Below are positions 1,136 through 10,550 of a stretch of DNA of 10,550 bases, one piece after another (position 1 is the first letter of the stretch; the number at the start of each line of letters is the position of its first letter). A program made the position numbers and the translations under genes. The stretch comes from Pseudomonadota bacterium (GTDB lineage: Bacteria; Pseudomonadota; Alphaproteobacteria; Rhizobiales; Hyphomicrobiaceae): the NCBI GenBank assembly GCA_021812845.1, contig JAKAML010000017.1, positions 1 through 10,550 of the forward strand, given 5' to 3'. The notes below the pieces were generated by a model. That model ran no database searches. It saw only the letters and a list, made by a program, of their open reading frames with translations, and was not told the origin of the DNA.

Positions 1136-2542
1136 ATGACACATTCCCAGGACATCGGCAGCACGCGGTACGTCTTCGCGTCGCTGAAGGAGCTGTTGGC
1201 CAAGGCGTCGCCGCCGCGGGCGGGTGACCGGCTCGCAGGCATCGCGGCCGCGACCGCCGAGGAGAACGTCGCCGCCAAGCTCGCGCTCTCCGACGTGCCG
1301 CTCAAATCCATCCTGGCCCAGCCGCTGATCCCCTACGAGAACGACGACGTCACGCGGCTGATCCTCGACCGGCACGACGCGCGTGCGTTTGCGCCTGTCT
1401 CCCACATGACGGTCGGCGAGTTTCGCGAGCATCTGCTGTCGCACGCGACCACCGCGGACACTCTCGCCGCACTCGCTCCGGGCATCACCCCGGAGATGGC
1501 GGCGGCCGTCTCCAAGCTCATGCGCAATCAGGATCTGATTCTGGCGGCCCGCAAGTGCAGTGTCGTGACGCGCTTTCGCAATACCCTCGGACTTCCGGGC
1601 ACCATGGCCGTGCGCCTGCAGCCGAACCACCCGACCGACGATCTCGCCGGCATCATGGCGGTAATCGCCGACGGGCTGATGTACGGCTGCGGCGATGCCG
1701 TCATCGGCATCAACCCGGCGACCGATCAGCCCGCGCGCATCGAGGCCATGCTCCGGATGCTCGACGATATCATCTTGCGCTACGAGATCCCGACGCAGGC
1801 GTGCGTGCTGTGCCACGTCACGACCGCCCTCGATCTCATGGCCAAGGCCGTGCCGGCCGACCTCGTGTTCCAGTCGATCGGCGGCACCGAGGCGACCAAC
1901 CGCTCGTTCGGCATCACGCTCGATATGCTGGGCGCGGCGAACGAGGCTGCGCGCGCGTTGAGGCGCGGCACGATGGGTCGGAATGTCATGTACTTCGAGA
2001 CCGGGCAGGGTTCCGCGCTTTCGGCCGGCGCGCATCACGGTGTCGACCAGCAGACCTGCGAGGCGCGGGCCTATGCCGTGGCGCGCGCGTTCGAACCGTT
2101 GCTCGTCAACACGGTCGTCGGCTTCATCGGACCCGAGTATCTCTACGACGGCAAGGAGATCCTGCGCGCGGCGCTGGAGGACCATTTCTGCGGCAAGCTC
2201 CTCGGCCTGCCGATGGGCGTCGACGTCTGCTACACCAACCACGCCGAGGCCGATCAGGACGACATGGACATCGTGCTCACCGCGCTCGCCGCGGCGGGCG
2301 TCACCTACGTCATGGGCGTGCCCGGAGCCGACGACGTCATGCTCGGCTACCAGTCGACATCGTTCCATGACGCGCTGTTCGTCCGCGAGGCGTTCGGGCT
2401 GAGGCGCGCGCCCGAGTTCGAGGCGTGGCTCGCGCGAATGGCGATCACCGACGATGCAGGGCGGCTTCTGCCGCCCGCACCCGGGCATAGGCTCGTCGCC
2501 AGCGTGCAGGCCGCAGCCCGCGAGCGGGAGGCGGCGTCATGA
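1136..2542 (+). CDS. eutB: ethanolamine ammonia-lyase, large (catalytic) subunit EutB
   Basis: This is the 468-residue alpha subunit of adenosylcobalamin-dependent ethanolamine ammonia-lyase (EC 4.3.1.7), which converts ethanolamine to acetaldehyde and ammonia. It covers the whole TIM-barrel family; the E. coli protein is about 453 residues. Substrate-site residues known from E. coli EutB are all visible: Arg160 and Gln162 in RLQPNHPTDD, Asn193 in GINPATD, Glu288 in FETGQGSALSAG, Asp363 in GVDVCYTNHAEADQDD, and Met393 in YVMGVPGADD. Numbering is within one residue of E. coli, which supports the ATG at 1136; the in-frame sequence upstream is unrelated. The purine-rich GGGGCGGGG just upstream is a modest ribosome site. 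The stop overlaps the eutC start (ATGA), so translation is probably coupled. No eut shell, transporter, reactivase or regulator gene is in the window, and no cobalamin riboswitch was recognised upstream. Confidence 0.97.
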   Translation: MTHSQDIGSTRYVFASLKELLAKASPPRAGDRLAGIAAATAEENVAAKLALSDVPLKSILAQPLIPYENDDVTRLILDRHDARAFAPVSHMTVGEFREHLLSHATTADTLAALAPGITPEMAAAVSKLMRNQDLILAARKCSVVTRFRNTLGLPGTMAVRLQPNHPTDDLAGIMAVIADGLMYGCGDAVIGINPATDQPARIEAMLRMLDDIILRYEIPTQACVLCHVTTALDLMAKAVPADLVFQSIGGTEATNRSFGITLDMLGAANEAARALRRGTMGRNVMYFETGQGSALSAGAHHGVDQQTCEARAYAVARAFEPLLVNTVVGFIGPEYLYDGKEILRAALEDHFCGKLLGLPMGVDVCYTNHAEADQDDMDIVLTALAAAGVTYVMGVPGADDVMLGYQSTSFHDALFVREAFGLRRAPEFEAWLARMAITDDAGRLLPPAPGHRLVASVQAAAREREAAS

Positions 2543-3448: not shown

Positions 3449-3480
3449 ATGTCGGCGCGGCTGCGCCCCGTCCGTCTTGA
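3449..3480 (+). promoter_or_regulatory. candidate ECF42-type promoter P1 of the DGPF/sigma operon
   Basis: ATGTCGG at 3449-3455 is followed by exactly 17 bases and then CGTCTTGA at 3473-3480. The same arrangement with identical conserved blocks occurs at 6143-6174. From memory, the promoter motif reported for ECF42 sigma factors is TGTCGA in the -35 region and CG(A/T)C in the -10 region; TGTCGG...CGTC differs by one base. Transcription would start near 3486, about 55 bases before the first DGPF gene, and run through the sigma gene itself, which implies autoregulation. Assignment to this sigma factor is inference. Confidence 0.6.
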
Positions 3481-3539
3481 GTTCAGTTCCGTCGGAAGAC
3501 CGACATGAACATCCCCCTGGACCGCACAAGGAGCCGCAC

Positions 3540-3971
3540 ATGAAAGTCATGGTCATCGTCAAGGCGAGCAAAGCGTCGGAAGCCGGCGAGATGCCGGACC
3601 AGGAACTGCTGACCGCCATGGGCAGCTACAACGAGGAGCTGGTCAAGGCGGGCATCATGCTTGCGGGCGACGGCCTGCATCCGAGCATCAAGGGCAAGCG
3701 GGTCCGGTTCGAGGGCAAGGACCGCACCGTGATCGACGGACCGTTCGCCGAGACCAAGGAGCTGATCGCCGGCTACTGGCTGTGGAAGGTCGCGGACATG
3801 GACGAGGCCGTGGCGTGGCTGAAGCGCTGCCCCAACCCGCACCACGAGGTGACCGAGGTCGAGATCCGTCCGGTGTTCGAGGCCGACGATTTCGGCGAGG
3901 CGTTCACGCCCGAGCTGCGTGCCCGGGAGGCGCGCGTCTTTGCCGAGGCGGCGAAGAACCGGCAGAAGTGA
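3540..3971 (+). CDS. YCII-related / DGPF-domain protein 1
   Basis: This 143-residue cytoplasmic protein belongs to the YCII/DGPF family, a dimeric alpha-beta ferredoxin-like fold with no settled biochemical role. The name-giving motif is seen as VIDGPFAETKE (DGPF at residues 66-69), preceded by a typical N-terminal strand (MKVMVIVKAS) and followed by GYWLWKVADMDEAVAWLKRC and VTEVEIRPVFE. The C-terminus carries a charged helical extension (TPELRAREARVFAEAAK). The ATG at 3540 has AAGGAG six bases upstream. The longer open frame upstream has no family similarity. It is first in the unit with a second DGPF gene and an ECF42-type sigma gene; genetic linkage of DGPF genes with ECF42 is an established pattern. 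A possible 12-residue leader ORF ends across its start codon. Confidence 0.92.
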   Translation: MKVMVIVKASKASEAGEMPDQELLTAMGSYNEELVKAGIMLAGDGLHPSIKGKRVRFEGKDRTVIDGPFAETKELIAGYWLWKVADMDEAVAWLKRCPNPHHEVTEVEIRPVFEADDFGEAFTPELRAREARVFAEAAKNRQK

Positions 3972-4020
3972 GTTCGCCCTCCTCTCCCCGGCCGCATCGT
4001 CCCCGTCACGGAGCCCCGAC

Positions 4021-4386
4021 ATGCAGTACGCGATCCTCTGCTATCACGACGAGAAGGTCACCTGCGCCTGGTCCAAGCAGCACGACGACGAGATCATGGC
4101 GAAGCTCGGCGCGGTCATGGAGAAGCACAAGAGCAAGCTCGGACCCGTGGCGCGGCTCCTGCCGACGACCGCCGCGACGACGCTGCGGAAGGATCGAGAT
4201 CCGCCGCTGGTCATCGACGGCCCGTTCGCCGAGACCAAGGAGCAGTTCCTCGGCTTCTACGTCGTCGACTGCGCGACGCTCGACGAGGCGCTCGACTTCG
4301 CGCGCGAGCTTGCCGCGGTCAATCCCGGCGGCGCCTACGAGATCCGGCCCGTCGCGGCGTTCTATCCCGACAAGGCCGCGTCGTGA
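4021..4386 (+). CDS. YCII-related / DGPF-domain protein 2
   Basis: This second YCII/DGPF-family protein has 121 residues, close to the usual family length. It has the N-terminal strand MQYAILCYHDE and the motif VIDGPFAETKEQFLGFYVVD (DGPF at residues 66-69, the same position as in protein 1). The end, YEIRPVAAFYPD, matches the usual C-terminal strand. ACGGAG lies seven bases before the ATG. It is 49 bases downstream of protein 1, and its TGA overlaps the GTG start of the sigma gene (GTGA), so translation of the two is likely coupled. DNA around the motif is nearly identical between the two DGPF genes over about 22 bases, which may reflect shared constraint or gene conversion. Its function is unknown; the partnership with ECF42 is known only from context and family surveys. 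Confidence 0.92.
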   Translation: MQYAILCYHDEKVTCAWSKQHDDEIMAKLGAVMEKHKSKLGPVARLLPTTAATTLRKDRDPPLVIDGPFAETKEQFLGFYVVDCATLDEALDFARELAAVNPGGAYEIRPVAAFYPDKAAS

Positions 4387-5636
4387 CGGGAGACGGCTGG
4401 ATCAGCGACGTCATCGTCGCGGCCCGGCCGCAGGCCATGGCGGCCCTGGTCCGCTATTTCCGCGATCTCGACGCGGCCGAGGAAGCCTTCCAGGAGGCGT
4501 GCCTGCGCGCCTTGCGAGCGTGGCCGAAGAACGGCCCGCCGCGCGACACCGCCGCCTGGCTGGTCATGGTCGGCCGCAATGCCGGCATCGACCGCGTGCG
4601 CAAGAACCAGAGGATGCGGCCGCTTCCGCCCGACGACCAGATCTCCGACCTCTCCGACGTCGAGGAGACCGAGGCCCTGCGCATCGACGAGGCCGACTAC
4701 CGCGACGACATCCTGCGGCTCTTGTTCGTGTGCTGCCATCCCGACCTGCCGGCGACGCAGCAGATCGCCCTCGCCCTGCGTATCGTGTCGGGGCTCGACG
4801 TCCGGCAGATCGCCCGCGCATTCGTGGTCTCCGAGGCGGCGATGGAGCAGCGCATCACCCGTGCCAAGAGCCGCATCGCGGCGGCGAGCGTGCCGTTCGA
4901 GGCGCCGGGCGCCGTCGAGCGCAGCGAGCGCATCGGCGCCGTCGCCGCGATGATCTACCTCGTCTTCAACGAGGGCTACACCACCAACGTCGCCGAGCAC
5001 GGCGCGAAGGCGCCCTTGTGCGCGGAGGCGATCCGGCTCGCGCGGCTGCTGCTGCGGCTCTTCCCCACGGAGCCCGAGATCATGGCGCTCCTCGCCCTGC
5101 TGCTGCTGCAGCAGTCGCGGTCGGCCGCACGCTTCGATGCCGACGGCGCCATCGTCCTGCTCGAGCACCAGGATCGCGCGTCGTGGGACCGGCGCCTGAT
5201 CGCGGAAGGCCTCGCGCTCGTCGACAAGGCGATCCGCCGGCGCCGCCCGGGCCCCTATCAGGTCCAGGCCGCGATCGCGGCACTTCACGCCCGCGCGGCG
5301 ACCTTCGCCGAAACGGACTGGCAGGAGATCGCGCTGCTCTACGGCACTCTGGAGGTCATGCAGCCGTCGCCGGTGGTCACCCTCAATCGCGCCGTCGCGG
5401 TGTCGAGGACGCGCGGCGCCGCCGAGGCGCTGACGCTGATCGAGCCGCTCGCGGGCAAGCTCGCGGCCTACTTCTATTTCCATGGAGCGCGGGGCGCGTT
5501 CCTCAAGGAGCTCGGCCGCGACGACGAGGCCCGCACGGCCTTTGGCCGCGCCATCGCGCTCGCCAACACGCCCGCCGAGGCGGCACACATCCGCGCCGCC
5601 CTCGACAGCCTGTCTCGAACGGACAAGACGCGATGA
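4383..5636 (+). CDS. ECF42-type RNA polymerase sigma factor with C-terminal extension
   Basis: This 417-residue extracytoplasmic-function sigma factor is about twice the length of a classical ECF. Region sigma2 is at about residues 20-78 (ALVRYFRDLDAAEEAFQEAC ... AAWLVMVGRNAGIDRVRKNQ). Region sigma4 is at about 108-165, with the helix-turn-helix around SGLDVRQIARAFVVSEAAME. The remaining 250 residues match the ECF42 extension: MIYLVFNEGYTTN (190-202), a helical LARLLLRLFPTEPEIMALLA stretch, YGTLEVMQPSPVVTLNRAVA (320-339), and a final TPR-like helix pair ending FLKELGRDDEARTAFGRAIA. In ECF42 proteins this extension, rather than an anti-sigma factor, is thought to control activity; no anti-sigma gene is present here. 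The GTG start overlaps the previous stop. Its own stop overlaps the next ATG. It probably transcribes from P1 and P2. Confidence 0.93.
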   Translation: MTGDGWISDVIVAARPQAMAALVRYFRDLDAAEEAFQEACLRALRAWPKNGPPRDTAAWLVMVGRNAGIDRVRKNQRMRPLPPDDQISDLSDVEETEALRIDEADYRDDILRLLFVCCHPDLPATQQIALALRIVSGLDVRQIARAFVVSEAAMEQRITRAKSRIAAASVPFEAPGAVERSERIGAVAAMIYLVFNEGYTTNVAEHGAKAPLCAEAIRLARLLLRLFPTEPEIMALLALLLLQQSRSAARFDADGAIVLLEHQDRASWDRRLIAEGLALVDKAIRRRRPGPYQVQAAIAALHARAATFAETDWQEIALLYGTLEVMQPSPVVTLNRAVAVSRTRGAAEALTLIEPLAGKLAAYFYFHGARGAFLKELGRDDEARTAFGRAIALANTPAEAAHIRAALDSLSRTDKTR

Positions 5637-6127
5637 GCACCGAGAGGCCGTATCGCTTCCATCAGCTCGAGCGCCACGAGGCGCCCTTCCTCGCCGCGCT
5701 CATGAGCGTCTTCGGCGAGGCCTTCGACGACCGCGAGACCTACCTCGGCGCCGTGCCGTCCGAGACCTACCTCGCGCAGCTCCTGGGCCGGGATCACTTC
5801 ATCGCGATCGTGGCGCTGGCGGAGCACGAGGTCGTCGGCGGGCTGACCGCCTATCGGCTCGACAAGCCCGAGCAGGTGCGATCGGAGATCTACATCTACG
5901 ACCTCGCAGTCGCGCCGGCACACCGGCGGCGGCGGGTCGCGACGGGCTTGATCGAGGCCCTGCGCCGGACCGCCGCCGGGCTTGGGGCTTACGTCATCTT
6001 CGTCCAGGCCGACCTGGTGGACGCGCCCGCGATCGCCCTCTACGAAACGCTCGGAACCCGCGAGACCGCCCTTCATTTCGACATCGAAGTGCCGAACGGT
6101 CGAGGACGCCGCACCGACAGCCGATGA
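5633..6127 (+). CDS. GNAT acetyltransferase, AAC(3)-I (aminoglycoside 3-N-acetyltransferase) family
   Basis: This 164-residue GNAT-fold protein resembles AAC(3)-I enzymes, which acetylate the 3-amino group of gentamicin-type aminoglycosides, along most of its length. Diagnostic stretches are FGEAFDDRETYLGAVPSETY (27-46), RSEIYIYDLAVAPAHRR (83-99), LGAYVIFVQAD (117-127) and ALYETLGTRETALHFDIE (135-152). These correspond to RSEIYIYDLAVSGEHRR, LGAYVIYVQAD and ALYTKLGIREEVMHFDID in AAC(3)-Ia as I remember it. The acetyl-CoA pyrophosphate loop, normally RRxGxA, reads RRRRVA (98-103), so the conserved glycine is Arg101. That change may weaken or alter cofactor binding. The ATG overlaps the sigma-factor stop, making it a member of the ECF42 operon. 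Family membership is clear; aminoglycoside activity is untested, and a different amine substrate is possible. Confidence 0.9.
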   Translation: MSTERPYRFHQLERHEAPFLAALMSVFGEAFDDRETYLGAVPSETYLAQLLGRDHFIAIVALAEHEVVGGLTAYRLDKPEQVRSEIYIYDLAVAPAHRRRRVATGLIEALRRTAAGLGAYVIFVQADLVDAPAIALYETLGTRETALHFDIEVPNGRGRRTDSR

Positions 6128-6142
6128 AAATTCCGGAGCCCG

Positions 6143-6174
6143 ATGTCGGGTTCGACAGCTTTCGGACGTCTTGA
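6143..6174 (+). promoter_or_regulatory. candidate ECF42-type promoter P2 upstream of the VOC genes
   Basis: ATGTCGG at 6143-6149, a 17-base spacer and CGTCTTGA at 6167-6174 reproduce the P1 sequence exactly in both conserved blocks and in spacing. The spacers themselves are unrelated, so this is not a simple duplication of the upstream region. It begins 15 bases after the acetyltransferase stop. A start near 6180 would leave a leader of about 45 bases before the glyoxalase-like gene. It would place the VOC pair under the same sigma factor, as a separate or additional transcript. Confidence 0.6.
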
Positions 6175-6223: not shown

Positions 6224-6625
6224 ATGTCCACCAAGCTGTTCGTCAACCTGCCCGTCCGCGACCTTCCGAGGTCGAAGGCGTTCTACGAAGCGCTCGGCTT
6301 CACGTTCAACCCCCAGTTCACCGACGACACCGCCGCGGCGATGGTCATCTCGGAGCACAACTACGCGATGCTGCTGACGCACGCGAAGTTCGAGAAGTTC
6401 GTGACGAAGCCCATTCCCGACGCGCGCGCGACGACGGGGGTGCTGATCGCGCTCTCACTCCCGAATCCCGAGGCCGTCGACACCCTGGTCACGAAGGCGC
6501 TCGACGCCGGCGGCAAGGAGCCGCGGCCGAAGCAGGATCACGGCTTCATGGTCCAGCGGACCTTCGAGGATCCCGACGGCCACACCTGGGAGCCCTTCTA
6601 CATGGACCCGACGTTCGTGAAGTAG
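6224..6625 (+). CDS. VOC-superfamily (glyoxalase/bleomycin-resistance-like) protein
   Basis: This 133-residue single-domain-length VOC protein has two beta-alpha-beta-beta-beta modules. It starts STKLFVNLPVRDLPRSKAFY and ends TFEDPDGHTWEPFYMDP, which are typical of a widespread family annotated as glyoxalase or lactoylglutathione lyase-like. The first metal-ligand position, His in true glyoxalase I, appears to be Asn8 (FVNLPV). Glu123 (HTWEPF) keeps the last ligand position. It may therefore bind metal differently, or bind and sequester a ligand rather than isomerise it. AAGGAG lies six bases before the ATG. It is 41 bases upstream of the next VOC gene and downstream of promoter P2. Genes of this family commonly accompany DGPF genes. 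The substrate is unknown. Confidence 0.88.
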   Translation: MSTKLFVNLPVRDLPRSKAFYEALGFTFNPQFTDDTAAAMVISEHNYAMLLTHAKFEKFVTKPIPDARATTGVLIALSLPNPEAVDTLVTKALDAGGKEPRPKQDHGFMVQRTFEDPDGHTWEPFYMDPTFVK

Positions 6626-6666: not shown

Positions 6667-7149
6667 ATGTCCGTCAAGCCGCGCATTTCCTCGTTCCTCA
6701 CGTTCGATGCCGAGGCCGAGGCCGCCGCGAAGTTCTACACGGCGATCTTTCCCAATTCGCGCATCAGGTCCATCGCACGCTACGGCGACGGCGCGCCGCG
6801 CCCGAAGGGCAGCGTGATGACGGCGGACTTCGAGCTCGACGGCATCCCCTTCACCGCGCTGAACGCCGGCCCGATGTTCCAGCCGACGGGCGCGGTATCG
6901 TTCGTCGTCCATTGCGAAACCCAGGCCGAGGTCGACCACTACTTCGATCGCCTGACCGCCGACGGCGGCAAGCCGATCGAATGCGGCTGGCTGACGGACA
7001 GGTTCGGCATCTTCTGGCAGATCACGCCGAACCGGCTTATCGAGATGATGCAGGACGAGGATCCGGTCAGGGTCCAGCGCGTGTTCGCGGCCATGTTGCA
7101 GATGAAGAAGATGGACATCGCCGGGCTCGAGGCCGCGTACCGCGGGTGA
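6667..7149 (+). CDS. PhnB-like VOC protein (3-demethylubiquinone-9 3-methyltransferase domain family)
   Basis: This 160-residue protein belongs to the PhnB-like branch of the VOC superfamily (Pfam name 3-dmu-9_3-mt). Visible signatures in order are ISSFLTFDAEAEAAAKFYTA (7-26), RYGDGAPRPKGSVMTADFEL (38-57), FTALNAGP (62-69), SFVVHCETQAEVDHYFDRL (78-96), CGWLTDRFGIFWQITP (106-121) and AMLQMKKMDIAGLEAAY (142-158). Despite the domain name, most members have no demonstrated methyltransferase activity and no S-adenosylmethionine site is seen. Role and substrate are unknown. AGGAGG sits eight bases before the ATG, the strongest ribosome site in the window. It is probably co-transcribed with the preceding VOC gene. 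The first of the tandem hairpins begins 11 bases after its stop. Confidence 0.92.
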   Translation: MSVKPRISSFLTFDAEAEAAAKFYTAIFPNSRIRSIARYGDGAPRPKGSVMTADFELDGIPFTALNAGPMFQPTGAVSFVVHCETQAEVDHYFDRLTADGGKPIECGWLTDRFGIFWQITPNRLIEMMQDEDPVRVQRVFAAMLQMKKMDIAGLEAAYRG

Positions 7150-7160
7150 CATAGTATGAT

Positions 7161-7214
7161 GATCGAGACGTCCGCTTCGTTCGGCAGCCGCACATGAGGA
7201 CGGACGTCTCGATC
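7161..7214. repeat. hairpin repeat unit 1 (tandem pair)
   Basis: GATCGAGACGTCCG (7161-7174) and its exact complement CGGACGTCTCGATC (7201-7214) enclose a 26-base loop. The arms pair perfectly over 14 bases. The loop contains GCAGCCG, CACA and GAGGA, which recur in the same order in unit 2. It lies just after the PhnB-like gene and could stop transcription or stabilise that mRNA, but no T-run follows. It is clearly homologous to the unit at 7255-7307. Confidence 0.8.
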
Positions 7215-7254
7215 TGGATCACACCACGAGTCTCGGCTCTTCCAGTGTCGTTCA

Positions 7255-7307
7255 GACCGCGAAGTCCGCAGCCGGGCACACGGAGGAAGGAAGCGGACTT
7301 CGCGGTC
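7255..7307. repeat. hairpin repeat unit 2 (tandem pair)
   Basis: GACCGCGAAGTCCGC (7255-7269) and GCGGACTTCGCGGTC (7293-7307) pair perfectly over 15 bases around a 23-base loop. The left arm matches that of unit 1 at 12 of 15 positions. The three differences (T/C, A/C, C/A) are each accompanied by the complementary change in the right arm. The two units are therefore diverged copies of one element whose pairing has been kept, as in REP-like or other mobile palindromic repeats, or in structured RNA. The element's name and copy number in the genome are unknown to me. Confidence 0.8.
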
Positions 7308-7406
7308 ACGACGCTAGTTTTCCGGCGCAAACATTCGCATCCCGTTCGTTGCCAGGTCGAGAGCAGATGTTTGGGCCAAAGGAACACTTGCAAGCTTGTG
7401 TTCTTA

Positions 7407-7479
7407 GTGCTGTTTCAGGCGCCGTCATTTGGTTGGAATGCCTGCCGCGGATCGAAACCAAATGACTGCGCCACAGCAC
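7407..7479. repeat. long imperfect inverted repeat (third hairpin)
   Basis: GTGCTGT (7407-7413), a four-base bulge and GGCGCCGTCATTTGGTT (7418-7434) pair with AACCAAATGACTGCGCC (7456-7472) and ACAGCAC (7473-7479). The inner 17-base stem has one mismatch, the outer 7-base stem is perfect, and the loop is 21 bases. It is unrelated in sequence to the two hairpins before it. Because of the symmetry, both strands read Asn-Gln-Met-Thr-Ala-Pro with an ATG inside the arm. I see no other sign of coding. It may be a small mobile palindrome, a duplicated fragment in inverse orientation, or an RNA structure in the leader of the GFA gene. Confidence 0.65.
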
Positions 7480-8651: not shown

Positions 8652-10550
8652 ATGGTTACGATGATCCGCTCGGACCTCGAATTCATCTTCGCCCAGATCC
8701 TGATCGCGGAGGCGGACGCACGGGGCGAGCAGCTGCTCGGCACCTACATTCCGAACTCCGAGCTGCCGTGGGGCCTGCGGCGGGTCGACGGATCGGACAA
8801 CAACCTCATCACCGGCCAGGGCGACTTCGGTGCCGCCGACCAGCCGTTCCCGCGCTCGACGACCGAGACGTTCATCAACGAGGGCGACGACGGGATGCCG
8901 TTCGGCCCGCCGATCCTGGTCGACGGCGTGCCCCTGTCGCTGCCCGGCACCAACGGTCCCGGCACGGGCGTGCCGCTCGGCTACATTCCCGGCCCCGGCG
9001 GCAATTGGTTGAACAACAACGATTACGGTGTCCAGGCCCAGAATACCGATCCGAACCCGCGCGCGATCCAGCCGGGCGACGTGGTCGACGCCGACCCCCG
9101 CACGATCTCGAACCTCATCGTCGACCAGACGGCGAACAACCCGGCGGCGATCTTCAAGGCGCTGCAGGAGGCCGGTCTCGACAACCCGACCGCCTTCGTC
9201 GAGATGGGCAACGTCGCGCTCTCGGTCGACGCCGTGAAAGCCGCCGAGGCCGCCGGCGCGCCCGCCATCGACGCGCTCGCGGCGGCCGAAGCCGCGCTCG
9301 CGGACGCACAGGAGGCGCTCGACCTCGCCAACGCCGCCAACGCCGCCCAGGCGCTGATCATCGCCGCCTACCAGGCCGCCGATGCGGCGACCGATCTCGC
9401 GACGGCCGCCACCGCCGGCGTCGATACGACGACCTCCGCCCTGGTGCTCGAGCTCGCCAACGGCGGGGCTGTCGTGGACCAGGCCGACCTCGATGCCCTC
9501 GCGGCCGCCGAGGCCGCCGTCGTGACGCTTCGCGGTCACGTTCAGGCCACGCTCGACGCGCTGAACTCGGTGCCCGGCTTGAACGCGGCCGACATCACGG
9601 CCACGACCGACTTCCTGAACTCGATCGACTCGCTGGTCGGCGTGCTCGACAACATCAACCTCGGCGACAACGCCGTCGGGCTCGCGGACACGATCAACGC
9701 TCAGGTCGCCGAGACCTTCGGCAACGCCTTCCCCGGCGTCGCCGCCGACCTCGACGCGCAGATCGACGTGTCGCTCGCCGACGCGATCGCGTTCGATGCC
9801 GGCATCGCGGCCGCGACCCAGGCGGTCATCGACGCGCAGGCCGCCGTCGACGCCGCCGCTCCGGCGGCCGCCGCCGCCCAGATCGCGATCGACACCGCAG
9901 GCGAGGCGCTGCGCACCCAGCTCGAGGGCTTCGGCATCTCGCTCGAGGAGAGCCCGACCGGCGACATCCTGAAGGCGACGCTGTTCATCGGCAACGTCGC
10001 GCCGGACGAGGGCCTGTCGGCGCCGTTCAACGGCTTCATGACGCTGTTCGGCCAGTTCTTCGACCACGGCCTCGACCTCGTGTCCAAGGGCGGCTGGGGC
10101 TCGGTCTACGTTCCCCTGCAGCCCGACGACCCGCAGTACGTCGAGGGTTCGAACACCAATTTCATGGTGCTGACCCGCGCCACCCTCGATCCGGTGACCG
10201 GCGAGCCGATCAACCTGACGACACCGTTCGTCGACCAGAACCAGACCTACACCTCGACGCCGTCCGCCCAGGTGTTCCACCGCGAGTACGAGATGCGCTT
10301 CGACGCGGCGCTCGGACATGACGTGCCGAAGGCGACCGGCCGCCTGCTCAACGGCGTCGACGGCGGCCTTGCCACCTGGGCCGACGTCAAGGCGCAGGCC
10401 TTGAACCTGCTCGGCATCGAGCTCGACGACTTCGACATCCACGCCATCCCGCTGCTGGCGACCGATCCCTACGGCAACTTCATCCCCGGCCCCAACGGCT
10501 TCCCGCAGATCGTGACCGCGGGCGGCCTCGTCGAGGGCGATCCGCTGGCG
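8652..10550 (+). CDS. animal-type haem peroxidase, N-terminal part (runs off the window)
   Basis: The frame is open for 633 codons to the window end. It encodes the N-terminal part of a large bacterial homologue of the myeloperoxidase/peroxinectin family, which uses haem and hydrogen peroxide to oxidise halides or organic substrates. Recognised blocks are LPWGLRRVDGSDNNL (38-52), GQGDFGAADQPFPR (55-68), DADPRTISNLIVDQ (146-159), LSAPFNGFMTLFGQFFDHGL (455-474), FVDQNQTYTS (526-535) and LLATDPYGNFIPGPNGFPQ (601-619). GQFFDHGLD carries the distal haem residues: Gln468, Asp471 (covalent haem ester position) and distal His472. Myeloperoxidase Asp96, a calcium ligand, is Gly473 here. Residues about 195-430 are an Ala-rich helical insertion. 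There is no N-terminal signal peptide; relatives often end in RTX repeats for type I secretion, which cannot be checked here. GAGGAG is six bases before the ATG. Confidence 0.9.
   Translation, partial: MVTMIRSDLEFIFAQILIAEADARGEQLLGTYIPNSELPWGLRRVDGSDNNLITGQGDFGAADQPFPRSTTETFINEGDDGMPFGPPILVDGVPLSLPGTNGPGTGVPLGYIPGPGGNWLNNNDYGVQAQNTDPNPRAIQPGDVVDADPRTISNLIVDQTANNPAAIFKALQEAGLDNPTAFVEMGNVALSVDAVKAAEAAGAPAIDALAAAEAALADAQEALDLANAANAAQALIIAAYQAADAATDLATAATAGVDTTTSALVLELANGGAVVDQADLDALAAAEAAVVTLRGHVQATLDALNSVPGLNAADITATTDFLNSIDSLVGVLDNINLGDNAVGLADTINAQVAETFGNAFPGVAADLDAQIDVSLADAIAFDAGIAAATQAVIDAQAAVDAAAPAAAAAQIAIDTAGEALRTQLEGFGISLEESPTGDILKATLFIGNVAPDEGLSAPFNGFMTLFGQFFDHGLDLVSKGGWGSVYVPLQPDDPQYVEGSNTNFMVLTRATLDPVTGEPINLTTPFVDQNQTYTSTPSAQVFHREYEMRFDAALGHDVPKATGRLLNGVDGGLATWADVKAQALNLLGIELDDFDIHAIPLLATDPYGNFIPGPNGFPQIVTAGGLVEGDPLA

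Follow-up and report, generated by a model that had tools for sequence, protein, structure and literature searches.

The window analysed here, one whole contig of 10,550 bases (JAKAML010000017.1) from a metagenome-assembled genome (2.04 Mb, 54% complete), carries two copies of the element ATGTCGG-N17-CGTCTTGA, at 3449-3480 and 6143-6174, on either side of a gene for an ECF42-like sigma factor. Comparison with related genomes makes it very probable that both copies, which we call box 1 and box 2, serve as promoters for the sigma factor whose gene they flank. In the 2.04 Mb of its own, 54% complete genome, the exact pattern occurs twice, both times in the window, and the reversed control gives no match. 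The original prediction, made from the letters of the window, had described two identical boxes with identical spacing and unrelated spacers, and that description is accurate.

Box 1 (TGTCGG-N17-CGTC, 3450..3476, plus strand) lies in the gap between eutC and YCII1, with 63 bases from the end of CGTC to the YCII1 start, and box 2 (TGTCGG-N17-CGTC, 6144..6170, plus strand) lies in the gap between GNAT and VOC1, 53 bases before the VOC1 start. AAGGAG precedes the start codons of both YCII1 and VOC1. In the mechanism we propose, RNA polymerase carrying the sigma factor would start transcription about 9 bases after CGTC, at approximately 3485 and 6179; these positions follow by analogy from the SMc01149 promoter of Sinorhizobium meliloti, as it is printed in the excerpt that we used, with its lower-case letter taken as the start. 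Box 1 would drive the operon YCII1-YCII2-sigma-GNAT, and with it the sigma gene itself (autoregulation), and box 2 would drive VOC1-VOC2. The activity of the sigma factor would be controlled by its helical, TPR-like C-terminal extension rather than by an anti-sigma factor, and TGTCGG, rather than TGTCGA, would be the preference of a subclade that has glutamate at position 155 (E155) in region 4.2.

Conservation of the boxes across genomes

The mutual identity of the two boxes is weak evidence when taken alone, because four exact repeat pairs of the 7-N17-8 form occur in the window. Spacings from 12 to 22 give between 2 and 8 such pairs, and 121 of 300 dinucleotide shuffles contain at least one at N17. 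The looser pattern TGTCGR-N15-19-CGWC matches three times in the window, a number reached by 44 of 200 shuffles and not above chance. One of the sites at the box spacing, TGTCGA-N17-CGTC on the minus strand (2333..2359), lies antisense inside eutB; we take it as a chance match, but it contradicts the earlier statement that no other TGTCGG or TGTCGA site has CG(A/T)C at this distance.

A far stronger test is whether the boxes are kept in other genomes. We assembled 113 loci with homologues of the sigma gene, 33 from the genomes of relatives and 80 from named genome contigs (the best 80 among the matches listed). Two duplicates were removed, and the other 111 were divided at 63% sigma identity into 93 near and 18 far loci. 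TGTCGG-N17-CGTC was present at -1800 to -300 from the sigma start in 80 of the 93 near loci, and behind the sigma gene, at +1200 to +1400 from its start, in 40 of them, a count that rises to 55 when the range is extended to +3400. The controls were 90 motif pairs, made from thirty permutations of the -35 hexamer, each combined with three rearrangements of the -10 block (which can reproduce CGTC); they gave a mean of 0.42 loci upstream and 0.04 downstream, with maxima of 4 and 2. Among spacings of 12 to 22 bases, 17 alone stands out, with 12-16 and 18-22 giving at most 6. Most of the 13 upstream misses are near misses: nine loci have a box with one mismatch at -420 to -474, two have an exact box at about -2300, one has TGTCGA, and one is a contig with 131 bases of upstream sequence. 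The 18 far loci contain no TGTCGG-N17-CGTC; in 11 of them TGTCGA-N17-CG[AT]C lies upstream.

The original prediction had read the identity of the boxes as a sign of selection and had offered conservation in orthologous loci as a check. Selection is borne out by this conservation across genomes; the identity within the window, where such repeat pairs are common, is weak evidence for it.

Agreement with mapped ECF42 promoters

Both boxes fit the target-promoter pattern of ECF42 sigma factors (TGTCGA or TGTCGG, 17 bases, CG(A/T)C). The original prediction had noted an agreement with the ECF42 motif, and the TGTCGG form is found in mapped S. meliloti promoters (PMC6180224, in excerpt). In the relatives, CGTC is followed by a conserved pyrimidine and then T, the T being found in 96% of the 80 upstream boxes and in all 55 downstream ones. 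Of the 55 downstream boxes, 29 go on with CTTG and 14 with CTAG, and CTTGG is conserved mainly in this box. The letters TTGA, once suggested to be a lineage-specific extension of the -10 element, are common to the two window boxes but are not kept in relatives, and we reject them as a conserved extension. Among 80 upstream boxes one has an exact TTGA after CGTC, and among 55 downstream boxes none has; a further case lies behind the downstream box of L287. In a genome of the same genus (G001), the boxes before the same two genes read CGTCCTTGGG and CGTCCTCGAA, without TTGA.

The layout of a YCII gene, a sigma gene, a box and a target gene, with glyoxalase-like targets, is already known from S. 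meliloti, a root-nodule bacterium. There the ECF42 factor RpoE10 has mapped promoters with the box motif, those of SMc01151 and SMc01149 being given in Table 1 of PMC6180224, and SMc01149-SMc01148 and SMb20475-SMb20474, which include two genes with glyoxalase-like domains, are reported to go up when RpoE10 is overexpressed (same source, in excerpt). Our comparison used DNA of strain Ak57 (CP090106.1); the promoter mapping was done in Rm1021. In Ak57 the order is YciI-sigma-SRPBCC-(SnoaL/glyoxalase), with the motif before the YciI gene and before the SRPBCC gene, and both stretches agree with the SMc01151 and SMc01149 promoters as printed in the excerpt of PMC6180224. Although its title names record CP090106.1 as plasmid pSymB of S. 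meliloti Ak57, its length of 3.7 Mb and the presence of dnaA and rpsT in the stretch make it look like a chromosome under a plasmid label.

Like the window, the S. meliloti locus SMc01151-rpoE10-SMc01149-SMc01148 has a YCII gene beside the sigma gene, one box before the YCII gene and another behind the sigma gene. The window sigma factor is 68% identical to the protein that stands in the place of RpoE10, and both have E155 in region 4.2 and glyoxalase-like targets. The two loci differ in the first target, which in S. meliloti is an AHSA1/SRPBCC gene followed by a SnoaL-glyoxalase fusion and in the window VOC1 followed by the PhnB-like VOC2, and in the first operon, which in the window has an extra YCII gene and a GNAT gene. 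Given the S. meliloti layout, mapped promoters and glyoxalase-like targets, we regard the window boxes as ECF42 promoters of a known kind. Sequence comparison confirms a wide distribution in alphaproteobacteria for the small regulon of ECF42 that was mapped in S. meliloti, a YCII operon together with glyoxalase-like genes.

Alternative explanations

The alternative that survives best is that only box 2 works. Box 1 would then be inactive or weak despite its conservation, or would serve another factor, and the sigma operon would not be autoregulated. We consider this unlikely, though it has a concrete basis: in S. meliloti, SMc01151, which heads the operon of the homologue RpoE10, did not go up when RpoE10 was overexpressed, and the motif overlaps the mapped start of that gene (PMC6180224, in excerpt). 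By analogy, box 1 may be inactive as an autoregulatory promoter, which leaves autoregulation at 3449 on less firm ground than activation at 6143. Set against this, box 1 is the more conserved of the two (80 of 93 loci versus 40 to 55), and three genomes (G022, G023 and G038), though not G024, also have a box in front of an unlinked YCII1 orthologue.

The S. meliloti result weighs against reading both boxes as promoters of the sigma factor, and so do several of our own observations. The 93 near loci take in many close relatives (Neorhizobium, Phyllobacterium, Shinella), and the counts therefore overstate independence. An exact second box within 3.4 kb is missing from 38 of the 93 loci, some of them on short contigs. 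In three of seven relatives (G022, G035 and G051), VOC1 has no box within 900 bases upstream, the G022 gene sitting in an operon behind the sigma gene, and the YCII1 orthologue of G024 likewise has none.

A second alternative, that the boxes are operators for some other DNA-binding regulator and not promoters, is very improbable, and we found nothing in its favour: the half-sites differ from each other and stand at a constant distance of 17 bases, which is the shape of a promoter, the letter at position 6 follows the type of sigma factor (next section), and the motif recurs in promoters that were mapped in S. meliloti from transcript ends (PMC6180224, in excerpt). Least probable of all is a chance repeat in GC-rich DNA, which the four repeat pairs in the window and the 121 of 300 shuffles might suggest but which is refuted by conservation at fixed positions (80 and 40 of 93 loci, versus 0.42 and 0.04 for permuted motifs) and by boxes at orthologues on other contigs.

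A possible link between glutamate 155 and the sixth base of the -35 element

The studied ECF42 members of Streptomyces and Pseudomonas read TGTCGA. What appears to be new in this analysis, judging from sigma factors compared with the DNA upstream of their genes, is that TGTCGG in place of TGTCGA goes with E155, essentially in one clade. We compared 197 non-identical sigma factors (151 plus 46), counting boxes with the 17-base spacing and CG[AT]C at -2600 to -250 where the sequence allowed. Among the 137 with E155, 119 have only TGTCGG, 2 have both forms, 1 has only TGTCGA and 15 have neither. The picture is reversed for the 60 without E155, where 34 have only TGTCGA, 1 has both, 1 has only TGTCGG and 24 have neither. 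Two genomes (G057 and G026) contain one sigma factor of each kind, each with its own box letter. TGTCGA-type ECF42 factors resemble the window sigma in their long C-terminal extension, of the TPR type in S. venezuelae and P. putida (PMC8999054, in excerpt), and, at the loci compared, in their YCII neighbours and the 17-base spacing; they differ in the hexamer and at position 155, where the rows inspected have A, G, S, Q or R.

In a HMMER alignment with AlgU chains, E155, R157 and R160 fall at R, R and R of the stretch VRSRIFRAR; the placement of E155 comes from this sequence alignment and not from the AlphaFold model described below. Through the residue names used in PMC6713349 (in excerpt), these positions would correspond to R171, R173 and R176 of E. 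coli sigma-E, of which R171 bonds to the base opposite -31 and R173 and R176 bond to G-35. If TGTCG[G/A] is read as -36 to -31, the variable base is -31. Glutamate 155 would then read the cytosine opposite G, and alanine would tolerate the thymine opposite A. We put forward, as a tentative proposal in which our confidence is somewhat less than even, that this single residue in region 4.2 determines which base is read at position six of the -35 element, and that one alphaproteobacterial clade switched, its regulon (YCII, VOC, BNR and AHSA1 genes) moving to TGTCGG and becoming insulated from TGTCGA-type ECF42 sigma factors of the same cell.

Some of the data run counter to this link. E155 occurs together with a TGTCGA box (genome G007; locus L045), and L309 has A155 with both boxes. 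Fourteen other alignment columns distinguish the types about equally well (divergence of at least 0.90), although within the recognition helix this holds only for 155 and, to a lesser degree, for 159. In a tree of 72 of the first 151 sigma factors, the TGTCGG rows form one clade, and E155 as a repeated, independent switch is therefore not supported; the only hint of a second event is L322 (Q155, T159, TGTCGG). The link between E155 and the promoter may already be in print. In the excerpts of six papers that we consulted (PMC8999054, PMC6180224, PMC8103513, PMC9205884, PMC10880074 and PMC6713349), ECF42 promoter sequences appear in PMC6180224 only. If true, the link would amount to a prediction of promoter choice from one residue and one base pair for a common group of sigma factors, useful for regulon prediction and for orthogonal expression switches.

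Reach of the predicted regulon

The original prediction held that box 2 brings the VOC genes into the predicted regulon. This is supported by the cross-genome conservation, by the RpoE10 promoters mapped in S. meliloti and by boxes at VOC1 in two genomes where that gene is on a contig other than the sigma gene: the VOC1 orthologue of G001 has a box 80 bases upstream, and in G024 a box stands 498 bases before VOC1, which is followed by a gene that we judged by eye to be PhnB-like. The closest named sigma factor among the matches listed (L066, 79% identical) is encoded in the same YCII1-YCII2-sigma-box-VOC1 order, with a VOC1 that is 73% identical. VOC1 homologues in G039 and G010 have TGTCGA boxes at -94 and -82, and the ECF42 factors there are of the other type. 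For YCII1, 8 of the 9 genomes that have a TGTCGG-type sigma factor show a TGTCGG box a short way upstream of the gene, compared with 0 of 9 others; this tally counts the window's own genome and leaves out G007, which has both sigma types.

The targets behind the second box vary among genomes. Following 55 second boxes to the first open reading frame behind each, we found that 31 of these frames form one BLAST cluster, and the single frame tested from it is assigned to AHSA1 by Pfam; other first genes tested encode glyoxalase, SnoaL-type, DUF1428 and DUF899 proteins. A few match YCII1, VOC1 or VOC2 of the window. The frames were picked mechanically, and some are probably wrong.

The two boxes were also said to define a regulon around the sigma gene. 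The outline of that regulon stands, but its delimitation does not, since a third box on another contig precedes a BNR-repeat gene and is repeated at the orthologue in G001. The window's own genome has ten TGTCGG-N17-CGTC sites (reversed control, 4), and adding the pyrimidine and T (TGTCGG-N17-CGTC[CT]T) leaves three (control, 0): the two window boxes and one that lies 97 bases before the BNR-repeat gene, which is followed by a ThiS gene (L225, contig C132, 1080-2606). The other seven were set aside, lacking the pyrimidine and T after CGTC and, by eye, any convincing gene start behind them. G001 has five sites of the longer form (control, 2). Three stand before YCII1 in the sigma operon, before VOC1 on another contig and before the BNR gene; the other two, judged by eye, are chance matches in appearance, one lying antisense where a gltD-like gene begins and the other having no gene behind it in its direction. 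Predicted ECF42 targets are thus extended to the BNR-repeat gene and the ThiS gene behind it.

In 20 BNR loci scanned (22 rows), a TGTCGG box lies within 100 bases in three, those of the window's own genome (G000), G001 and G017; farther boxes were found in G023 (at -631) and G010 (at -875). The BNR homologue of G003, which is 76% identical and belongs to a genome without a sigma factor of this type, has no box, and neither do those of G013, G015, G022, G024 and G044, although these genomes have such a sigma factor. Over the loci scanned, then, the BNR target is secure only in the window's own genus and G017.

The GNAT gene (5633..6127, plus strand) encodes an AAC(3)-I-like acetyltransferase and overlaps the sigma gene by 4 bases, from which we take it to be probably co-transcribed from box 1. 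A tblastn search of the 113 sigma loci (E 1e-5) gave no match to it, and no box was present at the nine GNAT loci of relatives that were scanned. We therefore reject it as a conserved member of the regulon; it is probably a lineage-specific member of the operon. The protein scores just above the cut-off of the AAC(3)-I aminoglycoside acetyltransferase family (NCBIfam NF033083, 200.6 bits against 200).

The sigma factor and its neighbors

The sigma gene (4383..5636, plus strand) encodes a protein with the two domains expected of an ECF42 factor, Pfam Sigma70_r2 (residues 15-77) and Sigma70_r4_2 (115-164), the latter with E155 and T159 in region 4.2. Its C-terminal extension is named DUF6596 in Pfam, not TPR. 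In an AlphaFold model built from a 28-row alignment (mean predicted local distance difference test score, pLDDT, 73.9), the extension at 177-416 is almost all helical, with 10-residue blocks at pLDDT 70-96 over 181-410, except for 53 at 201-210. The model is poor over the sigma4 domain, where blocks from 101 to 180 score 39-54. The 50 PDB structure matches listed are mostly proteins with TPR or similar helical repeats; ECF sigma factors make up most of the remainder, and no E-value is under 0.001. The helical model and the TPR-like fold matches agree with the TPR-type extension of about 200 residues that marks ECF42, and together with the review PMC8999054 (in excerpt) they fit an ECF42-like assignment. 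The nine window proteins with a Pfam match include no anti-sigma factor. ECF41 factors also have a C-terminal extension in place of an anti-sigma factor (PMC8999054 and PMC6180224, in excerpt), but theirs is of the SnoaL type, and the promoter of the S. meliloti ECF41 factor RpoE9 reads TGTCAC (PMC6180224, in excerpt).

Two YCII genes lie directly upstream of the sigma gene, as is typical of ECF42 loci with their YCII/DGPF neighbors. YCII1 (3540..3971, plus strand; Pfam YCII, E 2.5e-19) is the first gene of the predicted operon, and YCII2 (4021..4386, plus strand; E 1.3e-19) has a homologue immediately 5' of the sigma gene in most near relatives. Behind box 2, the first target gene, VOC1 (6224..6625, plus strand), encodes a glyoxalase/bleomycin-resistance-like protein (Pfam Glyoxalase, E 4.3e-11), and the second, VOC2 (6667..7149, plus strand), a PhnB-like protein of the 3-dmu-9_3-mt family (PF06983, E 1.6e-41). 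The full gene order, all on the plus strand, is eutB-eutC, YCII1, YCII2, sigma, GNAT, VOC1, VOC2 and a gene with a GFA domain.

Farther on, a large open reading frame (8652-10550) runs off the contig and has no Pfam or NCBIfam match at E 0.001. Directly behind VOC2, positions 7157-7318 hold a repeat about 160 bases long that contains two strong hairpins (7161-7214 and 7255-7307; fold z-score -6.4). It has no Rfam match. The genome holds seven near-full copies, including that of the window (74-100% identical), as well as partial ones, and the repeat is probably a dispersed extragenic palindromic element. A third inverted repeat, at 7418-7472 before the GFA gene, has 17-base arms with 94% complementarity.

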